Shown: piece by piece, positions 18,189 through 19,942 of the stretch | Layout of the letters: each line of letters begins with the position of its first letter | Numbering within the stretch: position 1 is the stretch's first letter | Assembly: GCF_027497215.1 (NCBI RefSeq) | Contig: NZ_CP114904.1 | Span: 3,432,001-3,496,000 of the forward strand | DNA: 64,000 nt | From: Micromonospora sp. WMMD812 | GTDB lineage: Bacteria; Actinomycetota; Actinomycetes; Mycobacteriales; Micromonosporaceae | Reading direction: 5' to 3' | Program-made: the position numbers and the translations under genes | The notes under the pieces: model-generated | What the model saw: only the letters and a program-made list of their open reading frames with translations | Told to the model about the DNA's origin: nothing | Database searches by the model: none

Positions 18189-18635
18189 TCACGGGACGCC
18201 CTCAAGGCCGTAGTGGCTCCAGAAAACCGGTCGGTGTTTGCGGAGCACTCCGCCGACGCGGGTGAGGAGCAGGTATCCGTCGGTCTGGACAAGCGCTGCG
18301 TCTTCGGGCCGGCCGGCCAGCACCCGTGCGACAGTGGCGGCCATGTTCGGGATGCCCTTCTCCGCGATCTCGTCGCCGCGCATCGAGAAGCCGACGTTGA
18401 CGTAGTCGGTCAGTTCCCACTCCCAGAGCGACCCGTCGTCGTCCTCGGCATCGAAGTAACCGTGATCGCCCGTGTAGACGCTCAGGGCATAGCCACGCTG
18501 TTCGTAAAGCCGCGCGCTGAGCACTCGCGGGAGAGCCGTCGGCGTGGGCTTCTCGGAGGGGTCGGCGGCTGCGAGTTCGGCTATGTCCTCCAGAGCAATG
18601 TCGCCGGCCAGCGTGAGCCGAAACTCCAAAGCCAT
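18189..18635 (-). CDS. SitI3-like immunity protein
   Basis: A 148-residue acidic soluble protein: MALEFRLTLAGD, LPRVLSARLYEQRGY, ALSVYTGDHGYFDAEDDDGS and WEWELTDYVNVGFSMR. I recognise this as the SitI3 family, the immunity partner of SitA3-type toxins first described in Myxococcus. The ATG at 18635 follows GAGAGG and lies only 14 bases after the tRNase toxin stop, the standard toxin-immunity order. It is predicted to bind and neutralise the toxin encoded just upstream. A longer upstream frame overlaps the toxin and is rejected. Confidence 0.8.
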   Translation of the reverse strand: MALEFRLTLAGDIALEDIAELAAADPSEKPTPTALPRVLSARLYEQRGYALSVYTGDHGYFDAEDDDGSLWEWELTDYVNVGFSMRGDEIAEKGIPNMAATVARVLAGRPEDAALVQTDGYLLLTRVGGVLRKHRPVFWSHYGLEGVP

Positions 18636-18649
18636 GTCGCAACCTCTCG

Positions 18650-19222
18650 TCAGTCTCGCCGTACGATCTGCACGATCGCGCCGCTTGGTGTCAGCGCGAC
18701 CAGTTCCTTCAGCCGCTCTATGGGCCAGTCGTCGAATTGGTGACGCAGGGCTGACACATCTCCGCGCCAGTCCTTGAGATTCAGCACCACCCGTTCGGTC
18801 TGTCCACTGTCGATCTTGTCGGCGATCCCACTCCAGACGCCTCTGACCGGCCTGCTCGGGGTGGGAGAGTAGCAATCAAAGACGTGCCCTTCGATCAGGT
18901 AATCCGGATCCGTCTGCGCGTCGCCGACGTCTCCGGTGCGAAGCCGAGCCTCCGCAACCTCAAGCCGTGTCGGGTTCTGGTGGATCTGGTAGCCCTTGTC
19001 GGCGATCTTGTCAGCGCCTTCGTTCTCGAGTTGCAGCGAGCGCCGCACCACGTCGTCTTCCCTGGGTCTGATCCGGGTTCGCGGTCCGGTCGGTCTGCCT
19101 CCGGGCGCACCCGTCGGTCGTCTTGTCCAAGGCGTATCCGCCTTGCTGACATCGGTAGCACGAGTTGCTGCGGCGCGATCGGGGGCAGGGCTGGTCGGTG
19201 CCGGGCCGCCAGCCCCGGTCAG
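18650..19222 (-). CDS. CdiA-type C-terminal tRNase toxin domain, in -1 frame to the DUF6244 gene
   Basis: The last ~133 codons are a CdiA-C tRNA nuclease domain: LQLENEGADKIADKGYQIHQ, PDYLIEGHVFDCYSP, ERVVLNLKDWRGDV and DDWPIERLKEL, with acidic and Lys residues of a PD-(D/E)xK-like fold. The frame is open without a stop back to base 19222, through a Pro/Thr/Arg-rich linker (LTGAGGPAPTSPAPDRAAAT...), with no ATG, GTG or TTG before GTG-GTG at 19051/19048. It therefore reads as the C-terminal half of a longer toxin whose N-terminus is the DUF6244 frame, reached by a -1 shift at 19222-19228. Internal initiation at 19051 (AGGGA 7 bases upstream) would give a 133-residue free toxin. Immunity gene follows. 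Confidence 0.75.
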   Translation of the reverse strand: MTGAGGPAPTSPAPDRAAATRATDVSKADTPWTRRPTGAPGGRPTGPRTRIRPREDDVVRRSLQLENEGADKIADKGYQIHQNPTRLEVAEARLRTGDVGDAQTDPDYLIEGHVFDCYSPTPSRPVRGVWSGIADKIDSGQTERVVLNLKDWRGDVSALRHQFDDWPIERLKELVALTPSGAIVQIVRRD

Positions 19223-19228
19223 TTTCCC
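19187..19228 (-). promoter_or_regulatory. Candidate programmed -1 frameshift signal (slippery heptamer, stop, stem-loop)
   Basis: Read on the minus strand the DUF6244 frame ends GCG GGA AAC TGA. G_GGA_AAC (19222-19228) is an X_XXY_YYZ heptamer in the correct phase, and a tandem -1 slip enters the toxin frame exactly (GGG AAA CTG ACC). Five bases after the heptamer, GGGGCTGG (19209-19216) can pair with CCAGCCCT (19187-19194) around a 14-base loop, 7 Watson-Crick pairs plus a G-U. Slippery site, spacing and structure are the three elements of known -1 sites; phage lambda G-GT uses the related GGGAAAG. Confidence 0.6.
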
Positions 19229-19746
19229 GCCGACCCCAGCCGCCGCGCTTCGGCGATCGCCGCCTCCACGGCTTGTTCGGCGGCGCTGGCGCGTTGTGCC
19301 AACAGGGCGAGGACCTGCTTGATGCCGTCCAGCGCCTGGAGCAGCGGGCCGGGCTGCCCGCCGTGCAGGACCGTGGTGACGAGTTGCTGCACCGTGCCGA
19401 TCTGGGTGATCGTGGCCGCCGACGCCTCGCGGGCACCGATGATGCCCTGCTGTACGGGGGCCAGTGCGGCGACGGTGTCCTGGGGTGTCGCCTCGCGCGG
19501 AACCGCGGCGGTGGCCTTGCTGGCCTCGTCGATCGCGGTGCCGAGGCCGCTCAGGCCGCCCCGGATGTCGCCGATCGCGGCGCGTACCCGGGTCATGCCC
19601 GCCGCGACGGCGGCGAACCCGGCGCCGGCGGCCTTCAGGGCGATCTCCTGGGCCTGGTTGTCGGCCGCGGCCGTCAGCCCCTGCGCTCGCTCCGCGCCGT
19701 TGGCCAGCGCCTGGAGTTCACCGGTGATCGTCTCGACCTGCGTCAC
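19219..19746 (-). CDS. DUF6244-like helical protein (N-terminal module of a polymorphic toxin)
   Basis: A 175-residue, almost entirely helical Ala/Gln-rich protein (VETITGELQALANGAERAQG, AGMTRVRAAIGDIRGGLSGL, LLQALDGIKQVLALLAQRAS), ending AEARRLGSAGN. It has no signal peptide. It resembles the micromonosporal DUF6244 family and, in general shape, the WXG100/LXG coiled-coil modules that lead type VII-secreted toxins. The GTG at 19746 is a best guess; TTG at about 19761 is possible. The stop sits inside a predicted -1 frameshift site that would append the tRNase domain. A short product and a long fusion may both be made. Confidence 0.7.
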   Translation of the reverse strand: MTQVETITGELQALANGAERAQGLTAAADNQAQEIALKAAGAGFAAVAAGMTRVRAAIGDIRGGLSGLGTAIDEASKATAAVPREATPQDTVAALAPVQQGIIGAREASAATITQIGTVQQLVTTVLHGGQPGPLLQALDGIKQVLALLAQRASAAEQAVEAAIAEARRLGSAGN

Positions 19747-19942
19747 GGGGTCACGTACCTCAATCGACGACGGTGGAGATGCTCGGCCTCGAAACCTACC
19801 GGGAATCACGCAGGCCGGCGACCCCGAACGGACCGGGCCGGACAACGGCGGCGGCCCGGAAGGAGCCGGCTGGGTCAACGGCCCGCGACCCCGAAGGAGC
19901 AAGGTGGAGCAACGGCCGGCGACCGCGAGGGTGCCGGCTGGG

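Follow-up and report, generated by a model that had tools for sequence, protein, structure and literature searches.

A probable programmed -1 frameshift joining DUF6244 proteins to exchangeable toxin and membrane payloads in Micromonospora

Introduction

The classic cases of programmed -1 frameshifting are dnaX with its tau and gamma products, the gpG/gpGT pair of phage lambda, and the IS transposases; to our knowledge, few cellular genes feature conserved -1 frameshifting. Bacterial and phage sites of this kind, the subject of a review (PMC5009743), combine an X_XXY_YYZ heptamer with a nearby 3' stem and yield one short and one C-terminally extended product. The locus described below shares the heptamer and the stem with these sites and would share the pair of products, but differs from them in that the added sequence is a swappable toxin or membrane payload, in that the heptamer is GGGAAAC with an adjoining stop codon, and in that the host is a high-GC actinomycete.

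A second comparison is with the classical polymorphic toxins (PMC3482391), which likewise feature a constant N-terminal part, a variable C-terminal toxin, and an adjoining immunity gene. There, carrier and toxin form one continuous ORF, whereas here they would be joined by recoding; the terms "frameshift", "frame-shift", "reading frame", and "recoding" occur zero times in 300,000 of the 357,715 characters of that source. The toxin domain itself belongs to the same family as the CdiA C-terminal tRNase (PF18451, PDB 4g6v). Unlike CdiA, however, the carrier is a DUF6244 protein, the immunity protein is SitI3, and the ORF contains no large CdiA exoprotein.

Conserved prokaryotic frame transitions, some of them experimentally confirmed, have been sought systematically in the GeneTack catalogue (PMC3711429), in whose main text "toxin", "Salinispora", and "GGGAAA" occur zero times. 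An earlier note on this DNA knew of no polymorphic toxin described as made by frameshifting, and this stands for the literature searched, preprints excluded: no report of such expression is seen among the entries listed and partial texts retrieved on frameshifting as it bears on polymorphic toxins, DUF6244, WXG100, type VII secretion, or deaminase toxins, nor among those on bacterial recoding, Micromonospora, and contact-dependent inhibition.

Materials and Methods

The stretch of DNA analysed, hereafter the window, comprises 64,000 nucleotides of Micromonospora sp. WMMD812. Relatives were sought in 160 genomes under the genus label and in 21 further family genomes carrying ten other genus labels. 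DUF6244 is matched in at least 149 of the 160 genus genomes and the -1-frame toxin in 60. From the matches listed, 191 distinct DUF6244 loci were assembled, with matches below 25 bits and loci of identical domain sequence dropped; because every locus listed as cassette-type was taken in, but only a portion of those with short DUF6244 proteins, the 191 are no random sample.

The C-terminal domain profiles were built on heptamer-bearing loci (23 of CdiA, 13 of deaminase, and 8 of membrane type), and domains counted as continuous include partial ones, such as those of L101 (44 codons) and L121. For the CdiA type alone, the count was repeated with a heptamer-blind CdiA_C profile made from 119 public proteins. 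Stem alignment A1 takes in 24 of the 70 CdiA loci together with the non-intact L040, L067, and L108; A2 takes in 15 of the 23 deaminase loci together with L140; and A5, with 26 sequences, combines seven gap-free deaminase loci with 19 membrane-type sequences out of the 20 in A4.

Results

Layout of the locus

All features of the locus lie on the minus strand. The zero-frame ORF (19222..19746) begins at GTG 19746, runs for 175 codons, and matches the DUF6244 profile PF19757 at 2.1e-31 (108.7 bits against a cut-off of 31.6). Its 3' end reads GCG GGA AAC TGA, with the GGGAAAC at 19228-19222 in X_XXY_YYZ phase, i.e., as the slippery heptamer G_GGA_AAC (19222..19228), abutted by the TGA stop (19219..19221). 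The -1 frame is open from stop to stop between 19717 and 18650. Entered from the CTG at 19222, it holds 190 codons plus a stop and has no start of its own at the junction, the first ATG, GTG, or TTG being GTG 19051. This -1 reading (18650..19222) consists of a linker and a CdiA_C toxin domain of tRNase type, matched by PF18451 at 9.6e-18 (64.6 bits, cut-off 26.6), with residues 22-184 matching PDB 4g6v_A by sequence at 3e-19. The earlier note had described a phased heptamer just before the TGA, a toxin frame open for 190 codons with no start before 19051, and a CdiA-type tRNase identity for the toxin, and on each of these points the sequence and the profile matches agree with it.

Downstream of the toxin lies an immunity gene of the SitI3 family (18189..18635, minus strand, ATG 18635; NF040657 at 7.3e-28, 97.8 bits, cut-off 31). 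Rfam has no match up to E 1 over 18600-19800. In PADLOC the matches are confined to weak ones between the helical carrier and two MukB-like models, both of them long.

The DUF6244 carrier

Among the relatives listed, 98 of 120 DUF6244 proteins are 175 aa long, and the named public ones come mostly from Micromonospora, with some from Verrucosispora and Salinispora; the eight named loci in one relatives list are all Micromonospora. AlphaFold predicts four long helices in a four-helix bundle (pLDDT 92.4). The fold is generic, the rows listed by fold searches being designed and other helical bundles.

The carrier had been called ESX-like, an unproven assignment that would have to lean on a WXG100 profile score of 14.8 bits, under the cut-off of 27.3, and on this generic fold; ESX membership was set aside on the profile score. 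The listed fold-search rows include no ESX protein, an absence that excludes nothing. Because EccC-type ATPase genes are present elsewhere in the same genome, type VII export of the carrier is possible, although its WXG100 score falls short of the cut-off.

Heptamer and stop across relatives

A recognised C-terminal domain is continuous in the -1 frame in 105 of the 191 loci (72 CdiA, 24 DddA, and 9 membrane type). The heptamer directly followed by a stop is found in 102 of these 105, versus 36 of the other 86, the remaining 50 being without a slippery heptamer (Fisher 6.6e-19, a value that overstates the case because related loci are not independent). Of the 36 heptamer-bearing loci that lack an intact recognised domain, some are decayed. 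The heptamer in the 102 loci is GGGAAAC in 96, GGGAAAT in five, and GGGAAAA in one, while the zero-frame stop in the 105 is TGA in 96, TAG in seven, and TAA in two. Eleven heptamer-bearing loci with a -1 domain lie outside the genus, spread over seven genus labels. The three exceptions (L079, L083, and L118) keep the -1 domain with the heptamer absent.

The association recurs in the CdiA group when the heptamer plays no part in the choice of profile. With the heptamer-blind profile, the heptamer is present in 69 of the 71 loci continuous in the -1 frame, in 8 of 10 more loci that are interrupted or in another frame, and in none of the three loci that are in frame. Relatives located by toxin protein alone have heptamer and stop in 27 of 29 cases. 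In every one of the 105 loci, the codon contributing X has G as its third base (TCG 56, CTG 33, GCG 11, TTG 2, CCG 2, CAG 1), although the residue encoded varies among S, L, A, P, and Q. The glycine codon within the heptamer is GGA in 102 of 102 loci, in a set picked by its heptamer, versus 174 of 1646 glycine codons (10.6%) elsewhere in the same ORFs.

The earlier note had proposed sorting homologues by frame, and had held that fusions in frame with no heptamer would count against recoding. This sorting speaks strongly for frameshifting: the 102 of 105 -1-domain loci with the heptamer compare with only seven in-frame fusions, all of them heptamer-free. Two of the seven belong to the genus (L030 and L138), while the five from outside it (L148, L167, L170, L176, and L180) are confined to two genomes of one genus label, making four genomes overall. 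Fusions of this kind, along with clearly decayed loci such as L021, L062, L108, and L111, are what would be expected were the split a lesion or sequencing error in a gene whose ancestor was fused in frame, for which the same note had considered the loss of one G. The same split of heptamer and stop recurs, however, in 102 loci, in dozens of genomes, across the genus and seven other genus labels, and the -1 frame is still under protein selection. We regard a lesion or a read error as practically excluded by this recurrence across relatives.

In one locus under another genus label (L162, 1082-1498, minus strand), AAATTTT occupies the heptamer position, and both the stop and a GGGCGGCGG stem are retained; its -1 ORF has 139 codons and is unclassified and toxin-like.

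Chance occurrence of the site

GGGAAACTRR occurs nine times in the host genome, and four of these occurrences read CTGA, one being the locus studied. At one of the other three CTGA places (L229, G000:C1:2617971, minus strand), GGGAAACTGA is followed by an open -1 frame of 194 codons, with no DUF6244. This -1 frame is, by eye, an ABC-transporter-like gene lying behind a zero frame of 53 codons, and the place is a chance look-alike. Since it has both a heptamer site and an open -1 frame, the two can arise together by chance; what lifts the studied site above chance is that 102 of 105 relatives keep heptamer and stop.

The pattern GGGAAACTRRNNNNGGGYKG, drawn up for the deaminase and membrane types, occurs at 67 places in 58 of the 160 genus genomes, versus two for a reversed control. 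It misses the window's own locus, and three of the 67 places read CTGG, with no stop. Of 19 places viewed, one (L253) is, by eye, without a DUF6244-like end.

Coding and starts in the -1 frame

The codon-position pattern of substitutions is that of the zero frame right up to the codons adjoining the heptamer, and within the toxin domain it is that of the -1 frame. In the CdiA group, codons 28-56 of the -1 frame, which lie 5' of GTG 19051, show a third-position substitution excess of 2.53, comparable to the 2.3-3.1 of the toxin domain, and contain a stretch conserved as -1-frame protein, WxRxxTGxxGGxPTG. Codon-position bias is slight or absent in codons 1-12 (ratio 1.22) and 13-27 (0.96). Because codons 28-56 are selected as -1-frame protein, translation in this frame is under way by about codon 28 in the CdiA group, and many of its loci have no start codon from that point back to the upstream -1 stop. 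Comparison of relatives indicates that the -1 ORF is coding and has no conserved start of its own.

Were the toxin translated separately, either by initiating internally (as at GTG 19051) or through termination-reinitiation where the frames overlap in CTGA, the heptamer would be incidental. Public toxin entries do start internally (93 of 119 are 118-176 aa long), GTG 19051 is present, a CTG overlaps the TGA at most junctions, and a TTG overlaps the stop in five GGGAAATTGA loci. In the interval running from the upstream -1 stop to the junction, ATG, GTG, and TTG are all absent in 62 of 70 CdiA, 18 of 23 deaminase, and 5 of 9 membrane-type loci, and a -1 stop lies within 15 codons upstream in 41 of the 102 loci. 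Extending the interval to codon 40 leaves 40 of 70 CdiA, 6 of 23 deaminase, and 1 of 9 membrane-type loci free of any such codon, with at least one found in 30, 17, and 8 loci, respectively.

These codons are not conserved in place. Of 68 aligned relatives, 7 have a start codon in the GTG 19051 column, and none of the columns ahead of window codon 54 has one in as many as 10. The WxRxxTGxxGGxPTG stretch upstream of this GTG is conserved. Where the zero-frame stop is TAG or TAA, moreover, the junction codon becomes CTA, which is no start, and the -1 ORF is still open, running to 196-202 codons in six genus toxin loci (L019, L027, L106, L107, L122, and L133). An internal start would also leave unexplained both the phase of the heptamer and the synonymous covariation of the stem described below. 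Internal initiation is rejected as a general mechanism, with starts unconserved and the -1 frame selected upstream of them, and separate translation of the toxin is on the whole very unlikely; expression only from GTG 19051, which the earlier note had named as a ground for abandoning frameshifting, is contradicted by the same two observations.

The 3' stem-loop

The stem of seven pairs plus a G-U that the earlier note described is present in the window, five bases past the heptamer, with 19216-19209 pairing with 19194-19187. A longer form has 12 pairs and a single bulged base, with 19217-19206 pairing with 19198-19196 and 19194-19186, and begins 4 nt past the heptamer; this stem-loop (19186..19217, minus strand) is the probable stimulator, a role suggested by folding and by comparative pairing. 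The window stem alone is unexceptional for so G+C-rich a stretch (z -0.13 versus dinucleotide shuffles, with 82 of 200 folding as well). Across the relatives, 93 of 102 loci begin pairing at a distance of 4-7 nt downstream of the heptamer, the mean 45-nt energy is -22.3 versus -14.9 a hundred bases on, and the mean z, against mononucleotide shuffles, is -2.70. Three main forms of the stem are seen: GGGGCTGG/CCAGCCCC before CdiA, GGGCGG/CCGCCC before deaminases, and GGGTGG/CCACCC before the membrane module.

In alignment A5, which spans the last two of these forms, 97.4% of cells pair, and the covariation score is reached in 0 of 500 shuffles, which ignore relatedness, nor does any slid version attain it. 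Among the five measures, two are no higher than in shuffled alignments: the count of pairs in which both sides change (315 of 500 shuffles) and that of additional pair types (472 of 500). At pair 15-39, 19 of the 26 sequences have U-A and the other 7 have C-G. Both sides of this pair are third positions of the -1 frame (Gly GGT/GGC and Pro CCA/CCG), and protein sequence is therefore no explanation for the change. Covariation in the CdiA group is modest: among 500 shuffles, 24 equal the alignment in percentage paired and 32 in score. The alignments thus point to a 3' structure conserved by pairing, more weakly so in the CdiA group.

Slippage of RNA polymerase, as opposed to that of the ribosome, would be expected to yield the same protein, and GGG and AAA are indeed short runs. 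Transcript slippage, however, usually requires a long homopolymer, and it needs neither X_XXY_YYZ phase, nor an adjoining stop, nor a 3' stem at nearly fixed spacing, all of which are conserved here. We consider it extremely unlikely as the source of the second product.

Payloads behind the site

The same site precedes CdiA_C (PF18451), a DddA-like deaminase (PF14428), and a WHH, colicin-DNase-like nuclease (PF14414). The latter is found at L160 (1040-1501, minus strand), behind a heptamer and TAG stop and with a SUKH-family gene next, and at L179 (3261-3728, plus strand), behind a heptamer and TGA stop, where the next ORF is similar by eye. Unclassified toxin-like ORFs lie behind the site at L157 and L162. 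The same N-terminal module is thus seen with different C-terminal toxins, as befits a polymorphic toxin, and adjacent immunity genes are of the SitI3 (window), Imm1 (L102, L107, and L171), and SUKH (L160) families. At L157 (1001-1501, minus strand), a -1 ORF of 167 codons that Pfam leaves unmatched up to E 1 lies behind a standard heptamer, and an ORF of 157 codons begins 3 nt downstream of it; the two are possibly an unnamed toxin and immunity pair.

Short DUF6244 proteins feature the same site, followed by a -1 product that spans 105-119 codons, contains, by eye, two hydrophobic stretches, and is probably a membrane-bound module. Such products are found at L140, L169, L186, L187, L192, L193, L196, L202, and L203, and further at L245 (two), L246-L250, L252, L256, L258, and L259. 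Five that were tested have no Pfam match. Searched with the L202 product, 5.8 billion predicted proteins yield only one relative, as is consistent with a product without a start. At L187 and L202, a 148-codon ORF overlaps the end of the membrane-type product.

Among 35 short loci, the eight with a membrane-type product all have GGGAAAC; among the 27 without one, the heptamer is altered in 15 (to GGGCAAC, GGGTAAC, or similar) and is still GGGAAAC in 12, so that loss of the product and loss of the heptamer are coupled only in part.

Discussion

The comparative evidence assembled here comprises the heptamer, the stop, the stem, -1 coding, a lack of conserved start codons, and natural fusions in which these two parts share one frame. 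It lends strong support to a programmed -1 frameshift, and we hold it very probable that such a frameshift joins the DUF6244 carrier to its payload. The locus would then be one gene with two decodings. The majority of ribosomes would end at the TGA and release the 175-aa, four-helix DUF6244 carrier, while a minority, aided by the stem 4-7 nt downstream, would slip back one base on G_GGA_AAC and continue in the -1 frame to give a DUF6244-linker-tRNase toxin fusion, for which the next gene would encode the SitI3 immunity protein. AAC is a poorer bacterial -1 A-site codon than AAG, and the efficiency of frameshifting may therefore be low. The signal appears to be a property of the carrier, shared as it is by deaminases, WHH nucleases, and the probable membrane module.

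As to what the device is for, the earlier note had envisaged a short DUF6244 protein and a minority fusion, made so as to limit toxin dose. The two products are retained in our reading; the dose limit is unlikely to be the whole story, as the signal also adds a module that is not a toxin. Low toxin output is an obvious benefit, and a pure dose limit is a possible purpose. That the frameshift is real and the short protein a mere by-product seems to us rather unlikely, for the same signal serves the non-toxin module on short DUF6244 proteins and the 175-aa length recurs among the listed relatives; taken together, these suggest that the short form is itself used. We favour a role in stoichiometry because the non-toxin module uses the same device: an excess of toxin-free over toxin-bearing carrier may be wanted for mixed oligomers or for export.

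We think it likely that DUF6244 is the carrier of a family-wide recoding in which a fixed signal sets the ratio of bare to loaded carrier while payloads are swapped, that these would constitute the first frameshift-expressed class of polymorphic toxin, and that the membrane branch is a hidden family missed by gene callers. Toxin entries, that of the window (18653-19051) as well as those of public relatives, start at scattered internal codons, leaving the linker for the most part, and the fusion, unannotated; given such starts and a membrane module that is nearly unannotated, gene catalogues probably miss real proteins here.

The roughly one hundred loci, with their natural variants (three stops, three stem types, alternative heptamers, and in-frame fusions), form a comparative series, in which the natural in-frame DUF6244-toxin fusions are a useful comparison for what the frameshift achieves. 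Should slippage be confirmed, toxin dose or carrier-to-toxin stoichiometry in these bacteria would be set by the ribosome.
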